DNA of 64,000 bases from Celeribacter neptunius (GTDB taxonomy: Bacteria; Pseudomonadota; Alphaproteobacteria; Rhodobacterales; Rhodobacteraceae). Shown here in pieces: positions 21,919 to 62,608 of the stretch. The stretch spans positions 62,001 through 126,000 of the forward strand of contig NZ_FORH01000010.1 in NCBI RefSeq assembly GCF_900113955.1, written 5' to 3'. The translations under genes were made by a program, and so were the position numbers. Every line of letters starts with the position of its first letter. Within the stretch, counting starts at the first letter, position 1. A model generated the notes under the pieces. The model had not been told where the DNA came from and searched no databases. It was given only the letters and a program-made list of their open reading frames with translations.

Positions 21919-22655
21919 TGGATATTTCCGGCATCGGCATCTTCGCGGCCTTCCTGGCGGGTGCCATTTCGTTCCTGTCGCCCTGTGTCCTGCCACTGGT
22001 GCCTGGCTACGTCTCGTACATCGCAGGGCAACCAGATTTGCGCACGACGCGGTCGGTCGGCTTGCGGGCGCGCGCCGGGGCGCTCGGGTTGAGTGCCTGC
22101 TTTGTCCTGGGCTTTTCGACGGTCTTCGTCGCCCTCGGGGCCCGGGCCAGCGCGCTCGGATCCCTGCTGCTGACATGGCGCACCGAGCTAAACTATCTCG
22201 GCGGCGCGATCATCATTCTGTTCGGACTGGTCATGCTGGGTGTCTTTCGTCTCAATGCGTTCTCGCGCGATACCCGTTTCAATCTCGACATTCCCGGCGG
22301 TCGCCCGTTTGGGGCCTACGTGCTGGGACTGGCCTTCGCCTTTGGCTGGACACCTTGCATCGGTCCGATCCTCGGCGCAATCCTGACGCTCAGTTCGACC
22401 TCCGGCGGCATGTCGGACGGCATCTGGCTGCTGTCGATCTATTCCGCTGGACTGGGGGTGCCTTTCCTGCTGGCCGCGCTCTTCACCGACGCCATCGCCG
22501 CGCGGGTAAGGCAGATCGGCAAAGCCGGTCGCTGGCTCTACAAGGGCGCGGGTGTTGCCATGATCATCATGGGAGTTGCCATCATGACCGGGCAATTGTC
22601 ACGGTTTGCCTATTGGCTGCTGGGGACGTTTCCCTTTCTCGCGACGATCGGGTGA
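21915..22655 (+). CDS. ccdA: CcdA-type thiol:disulfide interchange membrane protein
   Basis: 246 aa with six transmembrane helices. The two redox cysteines sit in LSPCVLPLVP (first helix) and GWTPCIGPILG (fourth helix), the CcdA/DsbD signature. It carries reducing equivalents from thioredoxin across the membrane to periplasmic partners such as CcmG or SCO. It overlaps the upstream gene by ATGA and is the last gene of this plus-strand run. Confidence 0.92.
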   Translation: MMDISGIGIFAAFLAGAISFLSPCVLPLVPGYVSYIAGQPDLRTTRSVGLRARAGALGLSACFVLGFSTVFVALGARASALGSLLLTWRTELNYLGGAIIILFGLVMLGVFRLNAFSRDTRFNLDIPGGRPFGAYVLGLAFAFGWTPCIGPILGAILTLSSTSGGMSDGIWLLSIYSAGLGVPFLLAALFTDAIAARVRQIGKAGRWLYKGAGVAMIIMGVAIMTGQLSRFAYWLLGTFPFLATIG

Positions 22656-23542: not shown

Positions 23543-24415
23543 TCAGGCACCGCAACCGTAATGTCCGCGATACCCTGCACGCAGACCGGGCCCAAGTTCG
23601 AGAACGAGATCGGCGTCCTGCATTTCGCCACTATTTGCGGCCAATGTGCCGGTTCCGCTCGGCGCGCTCAACGCCACTGTCATGCCTTCCTTGCCCCAAG
23701 TGCTTCCGGCGTCGCCAGCCTCCAGCCGCACCAGATCGCCGCTGATCTTGGCGAGAGCTACACTCCCACCGTCGATGCGGCCCACCGCCAGCGCAGGCCT
23801 GCTTGTGGTGGTGTAGGTGAACGTGCACGCCGCGCCGTCCGGGAAGAGTTGTGCGATGTCCTCCCGGGTCAGGAATTCAAGATCGAGAATGGTGATCTCC
23901 GCCGTGGACAGCGCCTCGTCAAGGCTCACGATCTGCGCCGGTCCGCTTTCTGACTGTGCCGGACTGTCACCATTGGCGTCGATATCGTTCACCAGATAAC
24001 GCATCTCGGCGATTTCCTTGTCCTGCGCATAGATGATCTCATCCGCCAACTTGCGCACGCGCGGGTCCGAGATATCGGCGCGGCTGGAGGTCATGATCGC
24101 GATCGAGTGGTGCGGGATCATTGCCCGCATGTAGCTGGTGTCGCCCACCGTCACCTGGCTGCGGACCAGCCAGAGCGAGGCGGCAAAGACCACAGCGGCA
24201 CCGATGAAGATGGCGGCGTTAGCCGTCTTGCTGGAATACATCGACAGCATGAAGCCCAGCATGATGATCGCCATGGTGGCACCCATCAGGAGAGCCATGT
24301 AGACCCGCGTTTCCGACCAGAACACATGCGTCCAGAGGTAGGTATTGAGATACATCAGACCGAACATGACGACGGTAGATGTCGCGATCATCGCGAAAAA
24401 GCGGCCATATGACAT
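23543..24415 (-). CDS. Membrane-anchored DUF305-like protein with extra C-terminal domain
   Basis: 290 aa. Three or four N-terminal transmembrane segments are followed by a DUF305 core (YMRAMIPHHSIAIM, with the diagnostic His pair, then EIIYAQDKEIAEM). A second extracytoplasmic domain of about 110 residues ends in LGPGLRAGYRGHYGCG; I recall this as similar to DUF6692, with low certainty. DUF305 proteins are common in copper clusters and bind metal through the HH motif. The gene sits downstream of cueR. Confidence 0.78.
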   Translation of the reverse strand: MSYGRFFAMIATSTVVMFGLMYLNTYLWTHVFWSETRVYMALLMGATMAIIMLGFMLSMYSSKTANAAIFIGAAVVFAASLWLVRSQVTVGDTSYMRAMIPHHSIAIMTSSRADISDPRVRKLADEIIYAQDKEIAEMRYLVNDIDANGDSPAQSESGPAQIVSLDEALSTAEITILDLEFLTREDIAQLFPDGAACTFTYTTTSRPALAVGRIDGGSVALAKISGDLVRLEAGDAGSTWGKEGMTVALSAPSGTGTLAANSGEMQDADLVLELGPGLRAGYRGHYGCGA

Positions 24416-24977: not shown

Positions 24978-27485
24978 TTATTCAGCCGGGACTGGTGACA
25001 GGTTGGCGGCAGAGCCGGGTTGCGCCTGTTCCTGCATCGCCGGGCGGACGCGGCGCAGGCGCAGCGCGTTCGTCAGTACGAAGACCGAGCTGAGCGCCAT
25101 TGCCCCAGCCGCCAGCACCGGCGACAGCAGCAGGCCCGACACCGGGTAGAGCAGCCCCGCCGCCACCGGAATGAGGGCCACGTTATAGCCGAAGGCCCAG
25201 AACAGGTTCTGGCTGATGTTGCGCATCGTACGCCGCGACACTTCCAGCGCGTTGACCACGCCGCGCAAATCGCCCGACATTAGCACCACATCGGCGGATT
25301 CGATGGCGACGTCGGTGCCGGTGCCAATGCTGATGCCCACGTCCGCATGAGCAAGCGCGGGCGCATCGTTGATGCCGTCGCCTACAAAGGCGATGTGCTG
25401 GCTCGGGCCGCGCAGATCGTCCAATGCCGCCACCTTGCCATCGGGCAGCACGCCCGCGATCACATGGTCGATGCCGGTCTCGCGGCCGATGGCCTCTGCC
25501 GTCTCTCGCTTGTCGCCGGTGATCATGGCGACCTTCAGGCCCAGATCGTGCAACGCCCGGATGGCCGCCGCGCTGGACGGCTTTACCGGATCGGCCACGG
25601 CGATGACGGCGGCCACCCGCCCGTCGATGGCGGCATAAAGCGCGGTGCGGCCCTGTTCAGCCAGGCGGCGCTCGGCGTCGGCCAACGCGCCGATGTCCAC
25701 CCCTTCGCGCGTCATCAGACGGTCGGCCCCCACCAGCACGTCGCGGCCTGCGACCTCGGCCCGGACACCGTGGCCCGTGATGGAGGTGAAGTTCCGCGCG
25801 TCGTGTCGAGTGACCGTCTCGGCTTCCGCCGCCCGCAGAATGGCCTCGGCGATAGGGTGTTCCGACTGCGCCTCGACCGCCGCGACCAGGGCCAGCACCT
25901 CGGCCCGTTCAAAGCCGTCGGCCAGCACCAGATCGGTCAGTTCGGGGCGCCCTTCGGTCACCGTGCCGGTCTTGTCCAGCGCCACCACATCCACTGTCGA
26001 AAGCTGTTGCAGCGCATCGCCCTTGCGGAACAGCACGCCCATTTCAGCGGCACGGCCGGTGCCGACCATGATCGAGGTCGGCGTGGCCAGCCCCATCGCG
26101 CAAGGGCATGCGATGATCAGCACGGATACACCCGCAACGAGGGCATAGGACAGGGCGGGCGAGGGGCCGACCAGCAGCCAGACGATAACCGTAAGCAGCG
26201 CCAGCGCCATGACCGCCGGCACGAACAACAGGGTGATCCGGTCGACCAGCCCCTGGATCGGCAGCTTGGCGCTCTGCGCCTCTTCGACCATGCGGATGAT
26301 TTGCGCCAGCGTCGTATCCGCTCCCACGCGTGTCGCACGGAACTGGAAGGCACCGGAACCGTTGACGGTCCCGCCGGTGACGGGATCGCCCACCAACTTG
26401 GCGACAGGCACCGGCTCGCCGGTGATCATGCTCTCATCGACGCGGGCGCTGCCTTCGGTCACTTCACCGTCCACGGCAATCCGCTCTCCGGGGCGCACGA
26501 GCAGGATGTCGCCCGCGGCGATGCGCTCGATGGCCACGTCCTCAGGCTCTCCGTCCACCAGCACGCGGGCGGTCTTGGCCTGAAGGCCCAGCAGCTTCTG
26601 GATCGCTGCGCCGGTGCGGCCCTTGGCGCGCGCCTCCAGCCACCGGCCCAGCAGGATTAGCACGATGATGACCGCCGCCGCCTCGAAATAGACGGCACGC
26701 GACCGTTCGGGCAGCAGCGCGGGCGCGAATAGCGCCACGAGAGAATAGAGATAGGCGGCAGAAGTGCCGACCGCGACAAGGCTGTTCATGTCCGGCGCAC
26801 GCTTGAGCAGGGCTGGAAACCCGCGCGTGTAGAAGCTGCGCCCCGGCCAGAGCAGAACCACCGTGGTCAGGACGAACTGGATCAGCCAGCTTGCTCGATG
26901 GCCGATCGTGTCGCCGATCAGACCATGCATGCCGGGGATCAGATGCGCGCCCATTTCCAGCAGAAACACCGGCAGGGTGAGGGCCGCCGCCAGGGCGGTC
27001 CTGCGGGCCAGCATCCGCGCCTCTTCATCCTTCCGGACACTCGTGTCTTCCGCCTCTCTGTCCTGCGGCAAGGTCGCGGGATAGCCTGCGTCACCCGCCG
27101 CCTTCAGCAGGTCTGCAACCGCAACCGCGCCTTCGAGATACGTTACCGTCGCAGTTTCCGAGGCCAGATTGACGTTCACGGCCAGCACGCCTGGCATCGC
27201 CGCCAAAGCCTTGTCCACCCGACCGACGCAGGACGCGCAGGACATGGAGGCCACGTTCAGGCGAGTGCTCTGCTTACGGGCCGGATAGCCAATCTCTTCC
27301 AGCTTTTCGACGATGTTCGAAATGCGCTCTGGCGCGTCGATCTGCGCCTGAGCGGTTTCGCTGGCGAGGTTGACTCGAACGTCGCTGACGCCCGGCAGGC
27401 CGGAAAGCCCACGCTCCACCCGCCCGACGCAAGAGGCGCAGGACATGTTCTGCAGGGAAAGTCGAAGGGTATGCGAATCCGACAT
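24978..27485 (-). CDS. copA: Cu(I)-translocating P1B-type ATPase
   Basis: 835 aa. Two N-terminal heavy-metal domains each carry MSCASC ([22 protein letters not shown]). The core has ITGEP, the CPC transmembrane motif [28 protein letters not shown] and GDGINDAP, plus the C-terminal Cu(I)-site residues YN and MALSS. It pumps Cu(I) out of the cytoplasm. A CueR-type promoter lies immediately upstream (27513-27543), divergent from the promoter of the broken copZ. Confidence 0.96.
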
Positions 27486-27625: not shown

Positions 27626-27691
27626 ATGATCAGGTTCAGCGTGCCGGACATGAACTGCGGACATTGCACCGCGTCGATAGATGTCGCGTAG
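27626..27691 (+). pseudogene. copZ: Copper chaperone copZ, truncated by a transposon
   Basis: AAGGAGA precedes an ATG encoding MIRFSVPDMNCGHCTASID, the start of a heavy-metal-associated chaperone with the metal site MNCGHC. The reading frame enters the transposon end at 27682 and stops at TAG (27689-27691) supplied by the element. About 45 further codons expected for CopZ are absent, and I do not find them beyond the right end of the element. The short product keeps the CxxC loop but cannot fold as a full domain. Confidence 0.88.
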
Positions 27692-27796
27692 CCCTTAATT
27701 GTGAGATGGGAAATCCAACGAAATCAACGGCTGATCTTTGCCCTTAAATATGAGATTTTGCCTTTAATTCTGATATTTTTGCCCTTAAGCCTGAGA
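27682..27796. repeat. Left transposon end: terminal repeat plus four 16-bp transposase-site repeats
   Basis: Copies of the pattern GCCCTTAANNNTGAGA occur at 27691-27706, 27740-27755, 27760-27775 (degenerate, GCCTTTAATTCTGATA) and 27781-27796, all in the same orientation. Such arrays are the binding sites of TniA/TnsB-type transposases. Confidence 0.85.
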
Positions 27797-27827
27797 CAGG
27801 GTTCACAGACATTTGCGGCAAATATCG

Positions 27828-29462
27828 ATGAATGATGATGGCGAAGACTCCGTTGCCGTTGGTGCTGAAGAGGCGCGCAGGGCCGCGGTGCTGCGCCCTC
27901 TTGTTCAGGCATATCTCAATGGGACTGGCAGCCTGGAACGTGGCATCAATGACGCCGTTTGGGAGCTTGGTGTCAGCAGGGCGACGGTCTGGCGTTGGAT
28001 AAAACGGTTGGCGGAAGAGGGTGGGCGCACCAGCGCTCTGGCTCCGCGGAAACGGGGCCGCCCGACCGGGACGATGTTAATATCCAGCAAAGTCGAAGCG
28101 GTAATCGAGGAGCACCTTCGCCGCTATTTCTTGCGCCGGGAGCGTTCGAGCTTGTCGCGCGTCGTGACAGAAATCCGCAGCGCTTGCTGGCAGGAGGGCT
28201 TGCAACCGCCGACGCGTCGGACGGTTCAGCGCAGGCTGGATGCAATGGACGCCCGCGCAATTGCCAAGGCACGCGAAGGCGCAAAGGCGGCCCGCCAGAA
28301 ATTTGCGCCGGTCGTAGGCGACAACAAGGCAAACCGGCCACTGGAGGTCGTGCAAATCGACCATACGCCTGCGGACATCATTCTCGTCGACAGTTTTGAA
28401 CGCCAACCAATTGGGCGGCCTTGGGTCACGCTGGCGATCGACGTCGCAACGCGGATGGTGACCGGATATTACACCTCTCTCGAGGCTCCTTCGCGTCTGT
28501 CGGTGGCGCTTTGCCTGACACAGGCTGTGGCCCCCAAGGCGGAACTTCTGGCGGAATTGGTGTGCAATGTTCCTTGGCCCGCGCAGGGTAAACCACATAG
28601 CATCCACGTCGATAACGGGCGCGATTTCCGGTCGCATGCCTTTCGGTCGGCATGTGCGGAATGGGGGATCGATCTGGTCTATCGGCCGCCAGGCAGTCCT
28701 CATTTCGGAGGGCACATCGAACGATTGATCGGCACGATGATGGGGGCCGTGCACCTGTTGCCTGGAACAACGCAATCCTCGGTCGTGGCCAAGGGCGACT
28801 ACGATGCCGAAGGCATGGCCGCGATGACTTTAGGCGAATTTGATCGCTGGTTTGCCCTGGAAATCTGCCGCTACAACAACAGCATTCATTCAAGTCTTGG
28901 CTGTACGCCCGTCGCCAAATGGGAGGTGCTCTCAGAGGAAATGATGGGCGACATCCCCTTCGAGATGGAAGCCTTTCGGGTGAGCTTCTTGCCGAGCGAA
29001 CTGCGCAAGGTCAGGCGTGACGGCATCCATCTGTTCCAGATACGGTACTGGTCGGATGCGCTTGCAGGCCACATTGGGCGCGGGGATGGGAAGGTGGTCG
29101 TTCGCTACGACCCTCGCGATATCTCAATGATCTGGGTCGAATTGGACGATGGCCGATATGTTGAGGCGCGTTACAGAAACTTGGAAATTCCGCCCGTGCC
29201 GCTCTGGGAATATCGCGAAGCCATGAGGAAGGCCCGTGCCCTTGGCAAATCCGGGTCCAATGAGCTGGTCCTGGCTGAGCTGATCCGACAGCAACGCCAG
29301 ATCGAGTTTGAAAGCCGGGGCCTAACGAAGGCCGAACGCCGATCCCGTGAAAGAAAAGGGACATTGGAGGGCACCAACTCGGCTGTCTCGAAAACCGAAA
29401 GGCTGCGCCCGATCGACACGGGTGATACATCGCGCCCATTGTTCAAAGTGGAGAGATGGTGA
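27828..29462 (+). CDS. tniA: TniA-type DDE transposase (Mu/TnsB family)
   Basis: 544 aa. An N-terminal HTH region (GVSRATVWRWIKRLAEE) and a second helical DNA-binding region precede the RNase H-like core. Catalytic residues appear as Asp in VVQIDHTPADI, Asp in IHVDNGRDFRS and Glu in GGHIERLIGTMMG, followed by a Mu-type beta-barrel C-terminal domain. The ATG at 27828 is chosen; a TTG at 27813 is also in frame. It would cut and join the 3' ends of the element using the 16-bp sites at both termini. A copper-type promoter reads toward it from 27572. Confidence 0.92.
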   Translation: MNDDGEDSVAVGAEEARRAAVLRPLVQAYLNGTGSLERGINDAVWELGVSRATVWRWIKRLAEEGGRTSALAPRKRGRPTGTMLISSKVEAVIEEHLRRYFLRRERSSLSRVVTEIRSACWQEGLQPPTRRTVQRRLDAMDARAIAKAREGAKAARQKFAPVVGDNKANRPLEVVQIDHTPADIILVDSFERQPIGRPWVTLAIDVATRMVTGYYTSLEAPSRLSVALCLTQAVAPKAELLAELVCNVPWPAQGKPHSIHVDNGRDFRSHAFRSACAEWGIDLVYRPPGSPHFGGHIERLIGTMMGAVHLLPGTTQSSVVAKGDYDAEGMAAMTLGEFDRWFALEICRYNNSIHSSLGCTPVAKWEVLSEEMMGDIPFEMEAFRVSFLPSELRKVRRDGIHLFQIRYWSDALAGHIGRGDGKVVVRYDPRDISMIWVELDDGRYVEARYRNLEIPPVPLWEYREAMRKARALGKSGSNELVLAELIRQQRQIEFESRGLTKAERRSRERKGTLEGTNSAVSKTERLRPIDTGDTSRPLFKVERW

Positions 29463-29463
29463 A

Positions 29464-30345
29464 TTGAGGGCAGGGACAACAGAGGAAGACGGTCGGATCG
29501 CCCTCATTCAATCGGATATCTGGATTGGCTTTCCGCGGGCCGAACAAGTTCTGGACCGTTTGCAGGGTATGATCGAAGCGCCAAGGCAAACCCGTATGCC
29601 TGGCCTTCTTGTGCATGGCGCGTCTGGGATCGGCAAGACGATGATCGCCCGCAACCTGTCGCGCAGATATGCACCGGAATATGACCCAGCATCGGGAATT
29701 ACGCGAACGCCGCTCTTGCTGTTACAAGCACCGCCAGCTCCCGACGAACGGCGGTTCTATCTGCACATCCTGGCGTCCGTCGGGGCACCGGCCACGGCAC
29801 TGGGCGCGCGCGCTCAAAATGTGGCCTCCCTCGAAGTCCGTGTTATTGCGCTTTTGCGCGACCTTGGCCTGCGGATGATCATGATCGACGAGGTCCACAA
29901 CCTCTTGGCCGGGACCCACCGCGAACAGCGACGCTTTCTCAATGTTCTTCGTTATCTCAGCAATGAGCTCGAGGTGTCACTGGTCTGTCTTGGGGTCAGC
30001 GAGGCCGTCGACGCCATCCGTGGTGATATCCAGCTTGCCCGACGGCTGGACGAACATCACTTGCCAAACTGGCGCGACGATGCCGAGTTCTCGGACATGA
30101 TCCAGACCCTTATTGCTGCCATGCCACTGGAAAAGAAGTCCAACCTGAAGGTCAAGTCACTCAAGCAGATACTTGCACTGACCGGTGGGGTGACCTCGCG
30201 CATTTTCGCCCTGATCAAGGATCTTTCCATCGACGCCATTGTAACAGGTGATGAATGCATCACCGATGACGCAATCGTAAAATGGACGCCGGTTTGGTCG
30301 CGCCATGCGAACCCCCATCGGCGGCTCGAGAAGTCCGGGGTGTGA
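29464..30345 (+). CDS. tniB: TniB-type AAA+ ATP-binding transposition protein
   Basis: 293 aa from a TTG start one base after the tniA stop, with GGAGAG upstream. Walker A is GASGIGKT and Walker B is MIMIDEVHNLL, followed by the sensor segment VSLVCLGVSEA. The protein is the TnsC/TniB regulator that links target selection to the transposase. An in-frame ATG at 29347 lies inside tniA and is less likely. The stop overlaps the tniQ start. Confidence 0.9.
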   Translation: MRAGTTEEDGRIALIQSDIWIGFPRAEQVLDRLQGMIEAPRQTRMPGLLVHGASGIGKTMIARNLSRRYAPEYDPASGITRTPLLLLQAPPAPDERRFYLHILASVGAPATALGARAQNVASLEVRVIALLRDLGLRMIMIDEVHNLLAGTHREQRRFLNVLRYLSNELEVSLVCLGVSEAVDAIRGDIQLARRLDEHHLPNWRDDAEFSDMIQTLIAAMPLEKKSNLKVKSLKQILALTGGVTSRIFALIKDLSIDAIVTGDECITDDAIVKWTPVWSRHANPHRRLEKSGV

Positions 30346-31133
30346 AGCCGCACCCGCTGCCCAAGACTGTCGCGCCGCTGCCAGACGAGTTGTTGTCAGG
30401 TTGGTTGTCTCGGCTGGCGGCGGCCAACTACTGTGATGATGCGGAACTGCTGGCCCATATCGAAATCGATACAACTCATGGCACGTCCTTGGACTTCAAC
30501 ATCGACGCGGCAGCGGCGGCGAAGATTGCCAACGCCGCACGGATTGACCCAGATGTTGTGCGATCTTTGACCTTCCCAGCAATGGCGACACGAGAAGCCT
30601 CGCTGACGGCCCAGATACCATTCCAGCATTGCCTGCAATGCTCCAGAGAGGGCCTTTCGCTCAAGCATTGGAGGCGAGCCTGGGCATTCGACTGCCAGGT
30701 TTGTGGGACGAGACTTGTACCGACGCTCGGCAAGGCCAGTGGCGAACAGATGCCCGAAAAGCTGATAAATCGTGCGCGCAACGGCGCCGCGCGGCTTGAA
30801 TACGCCGCGCGATTACGCAGCTCCAAGCAACTTCGGCGCGCAATGCGCGCGGTCACCTTTGCCATATCATTAAAGGCCTTCCGCGGAGATCCGTTACACG
30901 CTCTTCAGGGCCACAGGCTGGAAGTAAGGCTGTTTTGCCTTGCTGCAATTGATGCAGCCCAATCCCGTCCACTGGTCAAAGCGGCCATCTCAAGCTCCGG
31001 CATCGACGACTATGCAAGGGTTGCTCTATTGCGCGCCTTCGATAAGGAGCCACGTCTGCTTGCCGCGGTCGATTACATCGCCCGGCAGCGCGCGAAAAGC
31101 ATAGGCGCGATGGCAGTGGAATCTCATAATTAA
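30342..31133 (+). CDS. tniQ: TniQ-family target-selection protein
   Basis: About 263 aa from a GTG overlapping the tniB stop (GTGA). The N-terminal PLPDELLSGWLSRLA motif is typical of TniQ. Zinc-finger cysteines follow (FQHCLQCSREG, FDCQVCGTRL). TniQ proteins recognise the target site or a partner protein in Tn5053 and Tn7-like elements. The stop codon lies within a 16-bp right-end repeat, so gene and transposon end overlap. Confidence 0.88.
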   Translation: MKPHPLPKTVAPLPDELLSGWLSRLAAANYCDDAELLAHIEIDTTHGTSLDFNIDAAAAAKIANAARIDPDVVRSLTFPAMATREASLTAQIPFQHCLQCSREGLSLKHWRRAWAFDCQVCGTRLVPTLGKASGEQMPEKLINRARNGAARLEYAARLRSSKQLRRAMRAVTFAISLKAFRGDPLHALQGHRLEVRLFCLAAIDAAQSRPLVKAAISSSGIDDYARVALLRAFDKEPRLLAAVDYIARQRAKSIGAMAVESHN

Positions 31134-31187
31134 GGGCAAAAAATATCCCCGAACGCGTCGTGTCTCAGATTTAAGGGCAACGCGACA
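31122..31187. repeat. Right transposon end: two inverted 16-bp repeats plus terminus
   Basis: Reverse-orientation copies of the 16-bp repeat lie at 31122-31137 (GCCCTTAATTATGAGA in reverse complement) and 31163-31178 (GCCCTTAAATCTGAGA), followed by the terminus CGCGACA ending at 31187. Confidence 0.85.
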
Positions 31188-31188
31188 C

Positions 31189-31599
31189 GCCGTCACCGCG
31201 TCCAGGATCGCGGCCAGCGATGGAAGCGGCGCCATCTTCGCACCGCTCGCCATGGGCGGGGCAGGGGGGCTCCGTGTTAGTGGCCCGCCGGTCGATCGCC
31301 TCGCTCGCTGGCTTGAGGGAATGGCGACGTCGTGCCTGACTGCGATGCGTTACCTAGATGACATTGAGTCTTGGTTTGTGCGGGCAGAAACCGAAATGTC
31401 GCCGCTCTCGGGTAAGACCCCTCCGGCGCTGCTCGCCACACTTACGGAATGGCCACTCGTTTCTGCGCCAATGGCCGAGGCCATTACAGGCGCCAGTCGA
31501 ACTGCCGTTCAGCGCAACCTTGCTTGGATGGAAGCGCGAGGGCTAATCCGTGAGGTAACGAGACAAGGGCGCTATCGGATGTGGTGCACCGCGAACTGA
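31189..31599 (+). pseudogene. C-terminal part of an HTH protein cut by the transposon right end
   Basis: The frame is open from the transposon border and encodes about 136 residues: RIAASDGSGAIFAPLAMG, GPPVDRLARWLEG, then a winged-helix end (ASRTAVQRNLAWMEARG, REVTRQGRYRMW). The layout resembles the C-terminus of rhizobial RHE_PE00001/DUF1612-type HTH proteins, from memory only. The N-terminal part is missing. An internal ATG at 31252 could still give a 115-aa product, but no good ribosome site is seen. Confidence 0.65.
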
Positions 31600-31690
31600 A
31601 TGCTGCTGATGGGATTTCCGAATTCCTTGACGCACTTCTGTCCTCCATAGACCTATGCCCAGAAGGTGAGATGATCGGCAATCTCTGCAG

Positions 31691-32197
31691 CTATGCGCTG
31701 AGACGGCGCAGCCGCTTGTCGATCTCAGCCACGGGCAGGAAGACAGCATCATCCGCGCGCCAGACCTGCAGCGCGGAGATGAGAAGCTCGACCTCGCAGA
31801 CACCGGCCGCGTGCAGTTCGTCAATGATCCAGAGTACGCCATGAACGCGCACGGCGCGGGCGGTGGCCACCTTGCGCAGCAGGTTGTCGCCGGTCAGGAG
31901 GATACCGTTCTCCTGGCAGGTTGTCGTCACGAGGGCGAAGCAGTCGTTGGCCGACAAGCGGCTATGTTCCCGCTTCAGTGCGAAAACCCGCGCGACCTCT
32001 TCGCCCGGCAGATCATAGGTGGCAAGGCCACCATCTTCGAGCATCCGCCATTCCTGCGCCGTGAAGTCGAGGAGCTCCTCCTCACGGATGGGCAGGGGCA
32101 CGATGAACCGATAGGGCAGCCGCAGCAGGACGTGCAGCAACTCTCCCTTCTTCAGGTCGATCAGGCAGGACGCATCATTGACGACGATACAGGTCAC
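31691..32197 (-). CDS. PIN-domain-like nuclease (putative toxin)
   Basis: 168 aa. The acidic positions of a PIN fold are visible: Asp in VVNDASCLIDL, Glu in REEELLDF, Asp in LSANDCFALVT and Asp in LLTGDNLLRKV. PIN proteins cut RNA, often as toxins. The start overlaps the stop of the upstream XRE-ImmA gene (ATGA), a typical toxin-antitoxin or stress-module arrangement. The partner here is a regulator/peptidase rather than a small antitoxin. Confidence 0.72.
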   Translation of the reverse strand: MTCIVVNDASCLIDLKKGELLHVLLRLPYRFIVPLPIREEELLDFTAQEWRMLEDGGLATYDLPGEEVARVFALKREHSRLSANDCFALVTTTCQENGILLTGDNLLRKVATARAVRVHGVLWIIDELHAAGVCEVELLISALQVWRADDAVFLPVAEIDKRLRRLSA

Positions 32198-33273
32198 TGG
32201 TCACGCGGCCCCCTGATGTCACGTTCGACAACGCTCAAAGGGAGCCCGAGCATCTGGGCAGCGCGAACAGGCGAAATCAACTCCTCGCCGAGCGCGCGCC
32301 AAACGAGGCGCTCGAAGCGTTGCGGCTTCTCGAAGGCCGCGAAACCCTCACCGGGACCGATAGGCTCCGGCTCTTCGCGCCGCCAGCTTCGCGCATAGGT
32401 CTTGAACGCATATTCCACAGCGCTCTTCGACAGAATGCCCACTTGGCCGAGCCGCACGAGCATCGCGGCGGCAGAGACTCCGTAGGTGCGCTTGAGCCGC
32501 ATGATCTCTATCCAGGTCATGCCGTGCCGGTTCCGGCCAGCTTCCTCTTCCAGATGCTCGCGCGGGATAAGAAACGCCCCCGCGAAGCGGTGCATGGACG
32601 GCTCCTTTTTCAGCGCGACATTGCCGGTCTCGATGATGATCCGATGCGCGAGCTCATGGGCGAGGTTGAAGCGCTTGCGCTCGACGTTGGTGTGCCGCGA
32701 GACGACGATCACCTCAGTCGGTGCACCTTCCGCCCGCTCAACATGACAAGCCAGCCCGTTGATGCGCTCAGGTAGATCGGCCTCGATGACCTTGAGCCCC
32801 TTGTCTTCGAGCAGGGCGGTCATGCTTGGGATGGGGTCGATCCCGAGCTTCCACTCGCGCCGCACGTCCCGCGCTTTGGCGTCGATGGCCTCTTCATCGG
32901 CTACCATGTCCACGCGCAGCGCGGCGAACGGGTCTTCAGCCGGATGCAGGTCGAGGATGTCCTCGATGGCGAGATAGTCTTCGAGCTTCTCGATCACGAT
33001 GGCTTCCGCCATCGCGCGATCCTGCGCCGAGGCAGTCGAGTTCTTCCGCCACTCGACGCTTTCCAGAGCTTCGACCTGGCCACCGACAAGAAAATCCAGC
33101 GACACGCCGAGCGCCTTTCCGAGGCCGACCAACACCGACGAGGACGGCATCATCTTGTCCGCTTCGTATTTGCTGATGGCCTGCGCCGACACGCTTGGGG
33201 TCACGCGGTCGGCGAGAGCTTGCATGGATAGGCCAGCCCGCTTGCGGGCAAGCCTGAGCCTTTGTCCGAACAT
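32194..33273 (-). CDS. XRE-family HTH regulator with ImmA/IrrE metallopeptidase domain
   Basis: 359 aa. The N-terminal HTH is MFGQRLRLARKRAGLSMQAL and SVSAQAISKYEADK. The central zinc-peptidase motif is FNLAHELAHRIII (HExxH form HELAH). In this COG2856 family the peptidase half typically cleaves a repressor. GGGAGAGG precedes MFGQRL at 33273 and sets the start; upstream in-frame ATG at 33315 is rejected. It lies upstream of and overlaps the PIN gene and is divergent from the DUF2188 gene. Confidence 0.85.
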   Translation of the reverse strand: MFGQRLRLARKRAGLSMQALADRVTPSVSAQAISKYEADKMMPSSSVLVGLGKALGVSLDFLVGGQVEALESVEWRKNSTASAQDRAMAEAIVIEKLEDYLAIEDILDLHPAEDPFAALRVDMVADEEAIDAKARDVRREWKLGIDPIPSMTALLEDKGLKVIEADLPERINGLACHVERAEGAPTEVIVVSRHTNVERKRFNLAHELAHRIIIETGNVALKKEPSMHRFAGAFLIPREHLEEEAGRNRHGMTWIEIMRLKRTYGVSAAAMLVRLGQVGILSKSAVEYAFKTYARSWRREEPEPIGPGEGFAAFEKPQRFERLVWRALGEELISPVRAAQMLGLPLSVVERDIRGPRDQ

Positions 33274-33382
33274 GGTCCTCTCCCGGCGGTTGTTGTTTTG
33301 GTTGATAAGCGCCATTTCCTAATCTATATTTAAACACAAGGTTGGCAGAATCGTCAACCGAAATCGACATATGGAGCTTAAA

Positions 33383-33607
33383 ATGTCTAAGAAAAATCAG
33401 CATGTTGTGCCGCATCAGGGCGGTTGGGCAGTGAAGGGGGCGGGCAACTCCCGCGCGTCTTCCGTCCATGGCACGCAGCGCGAGGCCATCGCGGCCGCGC
33501 GAGAATCCGCCATGCGCCAGGGCAGCGAGATGCTGATCCACGGCGAGAACGGTCGCATCCGCGAGCGTAACACCTACGGCAACGATCCCTTCCCTCCGAA
33601 GGGCTAA
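33383..33607 (+). CDS. DUF2188 family small protein
   Basis: 74 aa. The pattern HVVPHQGGWAVKGAGNSRAS with VHGTQREAIAAARESA and HGENGRIRERNTYGND matches DUF2188, a small domain of unknown role common on plasmids and phages. GGAGCTTAAA before 33383 decides the start over the ATG at 33371. It is divergent from the XRE-ImmA gene and 18 bases upstream of the next small gene. Confidence 0.82.
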   Translation: MSKKNQHVVPHQGGWAVKGAGNSRASSVHGTQREAIAAARESAMRQGSEMLIHGENGRIRERNTYGNDPFPPKG

Positions 33608-58186: not shown

Positions 58187-58540
58187 TCAGAAGAGAATGG
58201 GGACGTGTATGAATTCGTCATCGGCGAAAGACGCCGATTGCCGCCACGACATTACCATTCGCGTGCTACGGTTCGAAACTACTGCGCTGACAAGCCCGTT
58301 AGGGATCAGAGCAGCGGCGCAACCGGGATGAATTCCGCAATCCGCGTCCAGAATAACGTGGACGGAGGAATTTGCGTCGGTGACCTGAACAATCTGCGTC
58401 TCTAACCCGGCAGGCTCGCCCTCATGCGCATGCAAACCATCGGCAATGAGACCGAAAAACAAGGCTCCGATCAATATCAGGACGAAGCTGACGCGAATAC
58501 GCGACACTCTTCTGACATCGATATGTGGCCTTGATCGCAT
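58187..58540 (-). CDS. Small exported hypothetical protein
   Basis: 117 aa. AGGAAGG precedes the ATG. One N-terminal hydrophobic segment (residues 17-36) is followed by HAHEGEPAG and a cysteine pair (DADCGIHPGCAAAL). No family recognised; the His/Cys content and setting suggest a periplasmic metal-binding role (inference). Confidence 0.6.
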   Translation of the reverse strand: MRSRPHIDVRRVSRIRVSFVLILIGALFFGLIADGLHAHEGEPAGLETQIVQVTDANSSVHVILDADCGIHPGCAAALIPNGLVSAVVSNRSTRMVMSWRQSASFADDEFIHVPILF

Positions 58541-58658
58541 GATTTGAGTCCTTCCTAGGTGATTATAACACGCTATCCAGATGGTGTGGTTGATCTAAAT
58601 CAGGGCGTTAAATGCTGCCTGACTCGGCGTCCTTGATGCGCAGCTTAGGCGAAATTAC
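58541..58658. other. Short intergenic gap
   Basis: 118 bases between two minus-strand genes. It contains ATGGTGTGGTTGATCTAAATCAGG (split by its own context) but no clear promoter or hairpin by eye. Confidence 0.3.
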
Positions 58659-60839
58659 TCAGTCGGCACTTTGCTCCAAAGTGTTTCCAAATCTGGAAAC
58701 CTTCACATCGTCCTCGATGAGCGTTGCTTGAGCGGCCCCCGGACGCGCCGCGTGCAGAGCAGCAAGAACATCCTGAGTCGACAATATTTCAGATAGGATA
58801 ATTCCTTCGGGAGCAGACGGCCCATAAACCGCGTTGAATGGAATGCCGTAACGGTTGTTGGTCTCCAAAAAACGGGTGATCGCGTCATCTGGGCGGGTCC
58901 AGTCGGCCAGCATCGGCGTGACACCAGAGCTGTTCAATGCCGAAAGAACCGGGTCGCGTTCAAGAACGAGCGCCTTGTTGGCTTTGCAGGTCAAACACCA
59001 ATCGGCGGTTACACCGACAAAAACGACCTCTCCGCGTGATACTCGACGGGCAATATCGCCGCGGTCAAATGTGACCCAGGCAATTTTTCCTGCTTGGGCA
59101 TCGGGTGCGGCGGGTGTTGCCAAGAATGGCGCGGCCGCGACCGCGAGTGCCGCCAGCGCCAGCCCAAAGGGCCAGCGAAGAGATCTTGGCACCCAGGGCG
59201 ATGCCGCTATGAAGAGCATAACCGCACCGAGAGATGCAACTGTTAGGGCCGCGCGCGATCCAGCAACGCCGAGCAGGACATAGAACAGCCATGCCGCGGT
59301 ACCCATCAGGAGGATGCCAAGGCCGGCTTTCAAGGCGATCATCCAGCGGCCGGGCTTGGGCACGAACCGAACAACGTTCGGCACGATGGCCACCAACAGA
59401 TATGGGCTGGCCAGACCTAACCCGAGAAAGGTGAAAACGACAGCGATGTCTATCACCCGCCCCGCAAGTGCGAATGCGATAGCTGTTCCAAGAAACGGCG
59501 CGGAGCAGGGAGTAGCCATGACCGCCCCGAAAAATCCGGTGGCAAAATCCGCTCCATACCCGGCCGTACCTCCTGCTTTCATCAACCGCGTTGTCAGGGC
59601 GGCAGGCAAAGAGAATTCGAACAGTCCAAACAGGTTTGCGGTGAACAGACCAAGGATCAGGAGCATCAGAACCAGGAACGTTGGGCTCTGGAACTGGAGC
59701 CCCCAACCGACGGCAACGCCAATCTTTTGCAATGCGAAGAGAACAGCCGCGAGTGCCCACATAAAGACCATGACTCCGGCGGCGGCGGCCAAGAAGCCTG
59801 CCCTGACTTGGGCATTGCCGCGTCCTTCGGATTTCAGGGCAGAAGATAACTTGATCGACAGAACAGGAAGCACGCAAGGCATGGCGTTCAGGATCAAGCC
59901 CCCAAGAAAAGCGATGATGGCGATCCAGATCACTTGATCAATGCCGGGGACCACCCGATCAATACTGAAAGGGGGAGTTGGGGCGGTTGTTGCCCGATCT
60001 GGCGTGACGGTGAGGGCGTGATCCGGCCCGTCCGTCACGGTTACCCGTGGCGGCGCGTCTGTATCTGCCATGTAGGCAAGAATTGGGAATTCAGCCCAAA
60101 GCGTTCGCCCGCTTGCCCCAAGGCGAATGTCGGGCTTCCCCAACGTGTTGCCATCACCAATTTCAGGAAAGACGTCCGGGGTTTTGAAGGCAGTCGTGGC
60201 AGCTATTTCTATCGTTAGGCGGGTGAAATCATCGTTTATATGGGATGTGGCGGCGGTCACGCCTGCCGCTCCTCCTTCCGCCGGAACGCGTGCGAGAAAT
60301 GCCCCGATACGATTAGCCGAGACTTGATCGATTGAGTTCCCCTGAGGCAACGAAAGTGCCAAGTCAAAATCCTGGGGGACACAAACTGCTGAGCAGGTCA
60401 AGAGCTTGACGTTTGCTCTGAGTTCGACAGGTTCCCCAGGATCCTTCAGGGTGATCTGAAGTGGAAAGACAACCTCATCATGATAGCCGAAGTTTTCGAT
60501 GCCAAAGGCAGTGAACCGCTCGGGCGCAGGCCATAGGAAATCAACGCCCGCGACATTCGTCGACCCGCTCCAGTCGATCTGTGGCGGAATGCCAACCTCG
60601 CCAGGCGAACGCCAATAGGTTTTCCATCCGTCAGCAAGGTTCAGATCCAGACCGGCGGAGAGCGTTTGAGCTTCGGCGGAAACGGCATCCTCGGCGGAGA
60701 TCAGCCGCGCTTCCACCGCAGTGACCTTGTGGGCGACTGATACCTCGGCCGTTGCAGCAAAGGGGATCAAGAGCCAGAACATTGCGGCAGCGAGGGTACC
60801 GCAGAAAGCAAGACGGATTGGCGAGCGCCAGATGGTCAT
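58659..60839 (-). CDS. DsbD/ScsB-like protein-disulfide reductase
   Basis: 726 aa from MTIWRSP, with GGAGATAG upstream. An N-terminal periplasmic domain of about 300 residues includes CSAVCVPQDF, a central eight-helix DsbD membrane domain has NAMPCVLPVLSIK and ATPCSAPFLGTA, and a C-terminal thioredoxin domain has ADWCLTCKANK. Electrons pass from cytoplasmic thioredoxin to periplasmic partners. ScsB is the copper-associated version. The start overlaps the stop of the small lipoprotein gene, and the operon carries a CueR promoter. Confidence 0.9.
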   Translation of the reverse strand: MTIWRSPIRLAFCGTLAAAMFWLLIPFAATAEVSVAHKVTAVEARLISAEDAVSAEAQTLSAGLDLNLADGWKTYWRSPGEVGIPPQIDWSGSTNVAGVDFLWPAPERFTAFGIENFGYHDEVVFPLQITLKDPGEPVELRANVKLLTCSAVCVPQDFDLALSLPQGNSIDQVSANRIGAFLARVPAEGGAAGVTAATSHINDDFTRLTIEIAATTAFKTPDVFPEIGDGNTLGKPDIRLGASGRTLWAEFPILAYMADTDAPPRVTVTDGPDHALTVTPDRATTAPTPPFSIDRVVPGIDQVIWIAIIAFLGGLILNAMPCVLPVLSIKLSSALKSEGRGNAQVRAGFLAAAAGVMVFMWALAAVLFALQKIGVAVGWGLQFQSPTFLVLMLLILGLFTANLFGLFEFSLPAALTTRLMKAGGTAGYGADFATGFFGAVMATPCSAPFLGTAIAFALAGRVIDIAVVFTFLGLGLASPYLLVAIVPNVVRFVPKPGRWMIALKAGLGILLMGTAAWLFYVLLGVAGSRAALTVASLGAVMLFIAASPWVPRSLRWPFGLALAALAVAAAPFLATPAAPDAQAGKIAWVTFDRGDIARRVSRGEVVFVGVTADWCLTCKANKALVLERDPVLSALNSSGVTPMLADWTRPDDAITRFLETNNRYGIPFNAVYGPSAPEGIILSEILSTQDVLAALHAARPGAAQATLIEDDVKVSRFGNTLEQSAD

Positions 60840-62143: not shown

Positions 62144-62608
62144 ATGAATTTCTGGGGATGGTTCGTTGGCGGGTTCTTCGTGCTCGGCCTTGGAGCGGTC
62201 GGTTGGCAGGCGTTGCAGCCGGCCCCGGCGCAGACTGCTCAAGGACACTCAATGGTTCCGCCGGACACGAGCGGCATACCTCAGGGCGCGCCCATTGCCA
62301 ATGTACTCCTTCCAGCTGAATTCTCTCCGCAAGCCCAAATGGGGCAACGCGCGTTCGAGGCAAAATGCGCCAGCTGTCATGGTGAAAATGCCGCAGGCCA
62401 GAATGGGGTCGCTCCTCCGCTTGTTCACAAAATCTACGAGCCGAACCACCATTCGGATGCCGCGTTCCTGAATGCGGCGCAAAACGGCGTCCAATCTCAT
62501 CACTGGAATTTTGGCAATATGCCTCCCGTTGAAGGCCTCACCCAAGGTGATGTGAAGATGATTGCGGGATACGTGCGCGAACTGCAGCGCGCGAACGGGA
62601 TCAACTGA
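62144..62608 (+). CDS. Monoheme cytochrome c
   Basis: 154 aa with an N-terminal anchor (FVGGFFVLGLGAVGW). The heme site is CASCH in CASCHGENAAGQNGV, and the Met ligand is likely in FGNMPPVEGL. It lies 30 bases downstream of the L,D-transpeptidase gene and just ahead of the next small gene. Confidence 0.88.
   Translation: MNFWGWFVGGFFVLGLGAVGWQALQPAPAQTAQGHSMVPPDTSGIPQGAPIANVLLPAEFSPQAQMGQRAFEAKCASCHGENAAGQNGVAPPLVHKIYEPNHHSDAAFLNAAQNGVQSHHWNFGNMPPVEGLTQGDVKMIAGYVRELQRANGIN

Follow-up and report, generated by a model that had tools for sequence, protein, structure and literature searches.

Introduction

Several described transposon groups resemble the element considered here. Members of the Tn5053 family are defined by a res site and a tniR resolvase gene; their cointegrates are long-lived at sites without an external resolvase, and missing target repeats in three chromosomal cases have been ascribed to possible later transposon activity (PMC7765201). 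TnsA-less Tn7-like elements are predicted to move via cointegrates, and for those without a resolvase, resolution is attributed to a resolvase acting in trans or to RecA (PMC8649781). Without TnsA, strand transfer is followed by replication and gives a cointegrate; type V-K elements, which have neither TnsA nor a resolvase, form such products (PMC11406308). Insertion sequence (IS) copies that lack target repeats through adjacent deletion or recombination are already known (PMC11708052). This article examines a 3.5-kb transposon made up of tniA, tniB and tniQ, which joins a broken copZ gene to a broken helix–turn–helix (HTH) gene in Celeribacter neptunius. "The window" is the whole stretch of DNA that was analysed, 64,000 nucleotides of contig NZ_FORH01000010.1 (positions 62,001 to 126,000; assembly GCF_900113955.1).

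The reading developed below, with a probability of roughly three in four, is that a TnsA-less, resolvase-less TniABQ element left this junction behind as a scar when it transposed replicatively. Most likely, the element moves replicatively and leaves behind unresolved cointegrates and element-anchored deletions.

The element and the two interrupted genes

Read from the sequence, the transposon occupies positions 27682–31187 on the plus strand (3,506 bp). Both ends are intact and are kept in relatives; the outermost bases are TGTCGCG at the left and CGCGACA at the right (first bases TGTCGCGTAGCCCTTAA, last bases TTAAGGGCAACGCGACA). An end repeat of about 20 bp occurs in four copies at the left and two at the right, mutually inverted. 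The junction is composed as follows.

27626..27681, plus strand: 5′ remnant of copZ, 56 nt; intact copZ in three relatives (L009, L010, L011) encodes 66 amino acids
27677..27681, plus strand: left 5-bp flank ATAGA, read directly
27682..27796, plus strand: left end (LE), terminal TGTCGCG and four GCCCTTAA-type repeats of about 20 bp; repeat family D1
27828..29462, plus strand: tniA, DDE transposase (TnsB-like); Pfam rve and Mu-transpos_C, annotation of locus L002
29464..30345, plus strand: tniB, AAA ATPase (TnsC-like); Pfam TniB, 8.4e-59, annotation of L002
30342..31133, plus strand: tniQ, target selector; Pfam TniQ, 1e-8, annotation of L002
31120..31187, plus strand: right end (RE), two inverted end-repeat copies and terminal CGCGACA; repeats D10 and I1–I6
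31188..31192, plus strand: right 5-bp flank CGCCG, read directly
31188..31599, plus strand: 3′ remnant of the HTH gene, codons 220–355 of 355 (the last 136); 95.9% identity to L007

The tniA reading frame is open from a TTG at 27813; the start annotated in L002 is 27828. In the PDB, TniA matches TnsB-type chains (best E 2.3e-41), among them chain 7svw (8.9e-36), TnsB of the type V-K element ShCAST. Outside the tni genes, just 146 bp precede the annotated start of tniA and 54 bp follow tniQ, so that no room is left for a TnsA, resolvase or cargo gene, and none was found among the open reading frames and Pfam matches of the 3,506-bp element. The three genes fill it, and there is no tniR resolvase gene within it; no search was made for a bare res site. 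No known RNA reaches Rfam gathering scores at the junction, and no account of this tniABQ element appeared among the papers listed in searches of open-licence PubMed Central. By gene content (TnsB, TnsC and TniQ without TnsA) it is a tnsA-less Tn7-like transposon in the clade 3 sense of PMC8649781.

An earlier note, made from the letters of the sequence, held that the left end (27682) interrupts copZ early and that the right end (31187) abuts a different open reading frame in mid-gene. Both statements were borne out: 18 codons plus 2 nt of copZ remain, and the intact version of the second gene has 355 codons in a relative. Direct reading likewise upheld its observation that the flanks ATAGA and CGCCG differ; no repeat had been misread. 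The comparison with related plasmids that it proposed finds both genes uninterrupted, with alignments that break exactly at 27681 and 31188. On the copper side, 22000–27681 matches Pacificitalea manganoxidans pDY25-B as well as Actibacterium pNS6003 at 100% identity, and Paroceanicella pD4M1E at 99.98%. In all three copper plasmids, the match ends at 27681 and the sequence runs on into intact copZ, then into genes for a hypothetical protein, TolC and a copper oxidase. On the HTH side, 31188–32167 (980 bp) is 95.9% identical to Paracoccus pantotrophus pPAN1 (L007), the match beginning exactly at 31188; the intact HTH gene of relatives adjoins a plasmid recombinase gene and repABC genes. The remnant itself matches the HTH_13 and RHE_PE00001 families, in both cases below cut-off. 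Over longer distances, 2682–27681 is 100.0% identical to pNS6003 across all 25,000 bases, and 31750–56187 is 100.0% identical to Celeribacter indicus pP73B. Since each side is identical to a different plasmid, two long modules of different relatives meet at the element.

Two simple explanations bear on this arrangement. The first is insertion into a naturally adjacent copZ–HTH pair with loss or misreading of the repeat. No evidence was found in its support, and in the relatives read the neighbours of copZ (hypothetical gene, TolC, copper oxidase) and of the HTH gene (recombinase, repABC) are different; with the ends and flanks read directly, such an insertion is hardly credible. The variant with a misread repeat was rejected on the directly read flanks and on the finding of both uncut genes apart. 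The second is an assembly artefact, in which two contigs were misjoined across a repeat. The copZ–LE junction does occur in this assembly only; on the other hand, the element has one match in its own genome and is thus single-copy, the contig of 141,533 bp closes with a 95-bp end overlap into a circle of about 141.4 kb, and the RE junction is present in two other assemblies, which makes a misjoin very improbable.

Target repeats among relatives

Copies of the element were gathered from complete plasmids, from a scan of genome contigs (best 80 of 123 confirmed loci), from a search of 394 genomes of the family (match in 55) and from extra stretches. Ends were excluded if they contained N or had under 5 bases of flank; strains were assigned to groups manually, and the set includes short-read assemblies. 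This gave 142 copies or lone ends, 70 of them with both flanks (69 distinct flank pairs; 63 full length, 3.4–3.7 kb).

A 5-bp repeat is present in only two of these 70 copies (2/63 of full-length copies, 2/21 of those on complete plasmid records), namely L005 (CCGCG) and one copy in S. abyssi JLT2014 (CGTGC). For L005, the uncut site is found on the window's own plasmid, with 600/600 bases. Other repeat lengths do not take the place of the 5-bp one: among 52 distinct flank pairs, there are six repeats of length 2, one each of lengths 4 and 5, and none of length 3 or 6–10. The base preference is alike on both sides, with C at position 2 (0.68 left, 0.59 right) and G at position 4 (0.61, 0.62), computed on 87 and 96 distinct flanks. 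Because both flanks have this same 5-bp preference, the left and right flanks look like target sites of different events. The earlier note had treated the missing repeat as exceptional, which does not hold; with 68 of 70 copies lacking it, absence likely reflects the normal way in which the element moves.

Two further kinds of stretch with these ends were met. Mini-elements of 320–347 bp consist of the two ends alone, resembling miniature inverted-repeat transposable elements, and none has a 5-bp repeat (L114–L117, L134, L135, L138, L139). Larger stretches have the same ends and different contents (L133, 11,332 bp; G208:C15 1512–22891).

Split repeats and uncut targets

Replicative transposition leaves two copies: the first retains the former left flank and acquires the target on its right, and the second carries the target on its left. 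The corresponding test asks whether the right 5 bases of one copy (RF5) equal the left 5 bases of another (LF5) in the same strain. This is the case in 6 of 112 within-strain ordered pairs, from 24 strains with at least one pair; shuffling the left flanks gives a mean of 0.62 matching pairs, and none of 5,000 shuffles reaches 6. An earlier count stood at 5/95 within strains versus 62/10,329 between strains, the latter including same-site cases.

The matching pairs are those of R. aestuarii (ACCGT), S. pontiacus (CCAGG), S. abyssi JLT2014 (CCTGA), C. indicus (GCGAT), S. abyssi SY10-16 (GCAGG) and C. mobilis (CCCTA). C. indicus provides the most clear-cut case: pP73C has GACCGCGGCGAT followed by LE and pP73B has RE followed by GCGATATTGCCCG, i.e. 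the halves of the target gene lie on two plasmids. The uncut form of this gene is present in the window itself:

58655..59454, minus strand: uncut target, dsbD-like gene, with GCGAT at 59055–59059; 799/800 bases equal the C. indicus flanks joined with one GCGAT

For two other pairs, 60 of 213 matching records were listed: the joined flanks of S. abyssi JLT2014 form uninterrupted sequence in other plasmids, with many matches to conjugation genes and identities reaching 97%; for S. pontiacus, one listed record has them uninterrupted at 96%. The uncut site of R. aestuarii was found neither among the 60 records listed of the 213 nor in the collected loci. From the split repeats we infer a replicative route for the element.

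Stepped junctions and the age of the two sides

The right end does not always meet the right-hand module at the same place. It does so at 31188 in the window, P. xiamenensis DSM 18339 and S. abyssi SY10-16; the sequence at this RE–CGCCG junction is 100% identical over 17,760 bp in P. xiamenensis and over 4,813 bp in S. abyssi. In C. indicus, RE lies at 31752, so that 562–564 bp (31188–31751) are missing from a gap that starts exactly at RE; its size is ambiguous, as its final dinucleotide, CA, is identical to that at the end of the element. Beyond the gap, the next 9,251 bp are 100% identical, and the element differs at 4 of 3,496 bases. In Nioella, RE lies at 32196 (94.7% over 600 bp).

A similar series exists at the copper island. 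LE meets it at 27681 in the window, at 24356 in P. xiamenensis and at 22205 in a Maritimibacter metagenome-assembled genome. The P. xiamenensis segment of 23,432 bp is 100% identical to 925–24356 and has RE at its other end. Along that far edge of the island, eight relatives have RE junctions of a single orientation (81–100% identity), at plasmid positions 58286, 61019, 61126, 61267, 62330, 62370, 62925 and 64511; the first belongs to the L005 copy with its own repeat, and that at 62370 to an element of 11.3 kb which shares these ends. One more junction, the ninth, at 64920, is a weak match (74% over 210 bp) in the opposite orientation. Stepped junctions of this kind are expected if the element repeatedly removes DNA outward from its ends.

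The two sides of the present junction appear to differ in age. The same RE, CGCCG and HTH sequence is common to three genomes, which marks the RE–HTH junction as old. The copZ side is probably the younger event, since the copZ–LE junction was found only here: none of 121 matching plasmid records reaches 80% of the probe, and ATAGA stands beside neither LE nor RE in any other element end read. S. abyssi SY10-16 yielded four left flanks, none matching copZ, and the left flank on P. xiamenensis contig C53 lies inside a recombinase gene.

A rival explanation for the present junction is homologous recombination, in which copZ and the HTH gene had each received an ordinary insertion, once with its own repeat, and the two insertions swapped flanks. 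Several strains do hold at least two full copies with equal scores, and the P. xiamenensis contigs fit the order GCGCG, element, 925–24356, element, CGCCG, an order that one crossover between a circle and a resident copy would give, where linkage across the element is inferred as the contigs break there. Against this stand the rarity of the required parents with their own repeat (2/70), the failure to find either parent in the plasmid collection, and the C. indicus junction, which begins exactly at RE. An origin of the present junction by such an exchange is unlikely.

Of 40 junctions mapped to the plasmid, 12 lie in the recombinase–HTH region, which makes up 1.5% of its length, with a homology bias possible; three of the 40 fall within the right end of the element itself. 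The loci concerned are L002, L016, L020, L021, L030, L065, L068, L094, L145, L146, L150 and L160, with the plasmid's own pair at C12 54908–57044. This crowding resembles res-site hunting, subject to the same possible bias.

Proposed course of events

With replicative transposition as the preferred reading, RE would already have sat in a plasmid recombinase locus, within its HTH gene. Strand transfer would later have connected LE with a fresh target, ATAGA in copZ; at RE, CGCCG would have stayed in place. As the element can presumably neither cut itself free nor resolve the product, the copper island would have become fused to the HTH-side DNA. The partner junction, with the HTH-side left flank, the 3′ part of copZ and the genes downstream, would then have been lost, or removed in the same step by adjacent deletion. 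If both sites lay on one replicon, a single adjacent deletion would suffice; if they lay on two, a cointegrate would have formed and its second junction would have been lost later. Candidate routes are intramolecular deletion, cointegrate formation plus loss, and homologous recombination. The earlier note had ascribed the junction to recombination between element copies, or an adjacent deletion, that fused a copper island to plasmid DNA. In outline this fits, as both sides are identical over more than 24 kb to different plasmids and other LE and RE junctions occur in relatives; it needs amending in that the absent repeat is no exception and the two junctions differ in age.

Several observations weigh against a replicative origin. 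The reciprocal junctions (HTH 5′ part next to LE; RE next to the copZ 3′ part) were found neither in the own genome nor among the other element ends read, and in plasmids no contiguous form was found among the 15 rows listed out of 199 and out of 112 records with a match; a split repeat belonging to the present event was therefore not observed. The copZ–LE junction comes from a single assembly. Of the within-strain pairs, 106/112 do not match, so that most histories would be multi-step or have another cause. Two of the six matching pairs, those of C. mobilis and S. abyssi SY10-16, depend on assemblies in which the contigs end within the element. Some of these products could also arise by homologous recombination between copies. 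Finally, an ISL3-type IS at the same loci, used as a control, keeps its 8-bp repeat CTTAATTG in one of four distinct copies: L002 has it, L006 and two copies in L074 do not, and two L128 rows duplicate L074. The scored L002 copy means that the script is able to detect repeats, and the lack of the repeat in the others means that some repeat loss may be general in these rearranged plasmids. This control is small, with four copies of one IS; IS21, IS3, IS6 and ISKra4 gave no usable copy set among the matches listed.

Searches for the missing halves gave little. In the own genome, the copZ 3′ half and downstream genes are represented solely by an 87-bp match of 73%, and the HTH 5′ half solely by a 76% paralogue elsewhere on the plasmid, which belongs to the plasmid's own recombinase–HTH pair. 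Probes for the reciprocal junctions were reached to 80% by four records for one, all as two-piece matches, and by no record for the other; Pacificitalea manganoxidans holds no reciprocal pair. A retained inversion in this genome was rejected, since no reciprocal junction was found there, the element is single-copy and the second gene halves are missing.

The ISL3-type copies (L002 6312–8002, L006 11741–13431, L074 4279–5965 and 9317–11004) have a GCCCTTAA-type terminal repeat of the element on at least one side in all four cases, in a sample biased by having been fetched through the element. Perhaps this IS targets transposon ends.

Genes beside the junction

Genes close to the junction on the two sides are the following.

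24978..27485, minus strand: copper-type P-type ATPase, 835 amino acids; Pfam E1-E2_ATPase and two HMA matches; last complete copper-island gene left of the element
31691..33315, minus strand: PIN/VapC-type gene and XRE/IrrE gene, named from relatives' annotations; the PIN/VapC-type gene has no Pfam hit

Together with a DUF2188 gene, the latter two form a cassette (31691–33605) that recurs at about 90–91% identity in two other plasmids read. There it stands beside conjugation genes, and once adjoins a phospholipase of the type found in cyclic-oligonucleotide-based antiphage signalling systems (CBASS).

The blocks of about 25 kb that are 100.0% identical occur, for the left side, in Actibacterium and Pseudosulfitobacter plasmids and, for the right side, in Celeribacter indicus. 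Identity over such lengths points to very recent exchange.

Significance

The relatives suggest that an element of this kind often leaves such scars on moving, and it may serve as a cut-and-join tool that reshapes the plasmids of marine bacteria. Whether this extends to a general rule is an evenly balanced question: a cargo-less, resolvase-less TniABQ element of 3.5 kb would then be a general engine of plasmid mosaicism in Rhodobacterales, acting like IS26 with unrelated enzymes. It would fuse replicons, split 5-bp repeats between copies and plasmids, trim DNA stepwise from either end, turn the copper island into a unit bounded by direct copies and use plasmid recombinase loci as entry points.

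The system is of interest as a natural element in which the cointegrate prediction can be read from sequence, with repeats split even across two plasmids of one strain and an uncut target in the window. A replicative mode would account for the joining of 25-kb blocks that plasmids of different genera share in identical form. Comparing RF5 with LF5 offers a simple genomic test, applicable to any element family, of whether transposition is replicative. The element is also relevant to tools derived from type V-K CRISPR-associated transposons (CASTs), whose handling of cointegrates in native hosts is given as unknown in PMC11406308.

Comparison with known systems

We class the element as a pared-down variant of Tn5053-like (tnsA-less Tn7-like) type with IS26-like behaviour. 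It has tniABQ, but tniR was not found, and it is therefore not placed in the Tn5053 family. Like Tn5053/Tn402 (tniABQ-res-tniR), known as res-site hunters, it has tniA, tniB and tniQ in one operon, a 5-bp target, a probable replicative route without TnsA and several junctions near a plasmid recombinase gene; RE of the present copy sits in the HTH gene of such a locus. The terminal TGTCG is presumably shared with the 25-bp inverted ends of Tn5053, a likeness that covers TGTCG alone. In contrast to Tn5053/Tn402, no tniR was found, there is no cargo, the whole measures 3.5 kb, and single copies almost never keep the 5-bp repeat (2/70), the unit being split in 6/112 pairs.

With the Tns module of type V-K CASTs (ShCAST), it has in common TnsB, TnsC and TniQ without TnsA or a resolvase, whereas neither Cas12k nor a CRISPR array is present in the element. 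Tn7 likewise has a TnsB-like transposase, an AAA regulator and a 5-bp target; unlike Tn7, this element has no TnsA and no TnsD/TnsE pair, and without TnsA, cut-and-paste is not expected.

A parallel in behaviour is IS26 (IS6 family), which is marked by repeat-less copies, cointegrates, element-anchored deletions and islands bounded by direct copies, all of which have likenesses here. The enzymes differ, as the three-protein transposase is unrelated, with a TnsB-like TniA and no IS6-type DDE transposase, and the target is 8 bp for IS26 versus 5 bp for the tniABQ element. What is new is that, for this element family, absence of the single-copy repeat seems to be the usual result of a move, for which the split repeats provide direct evidence.

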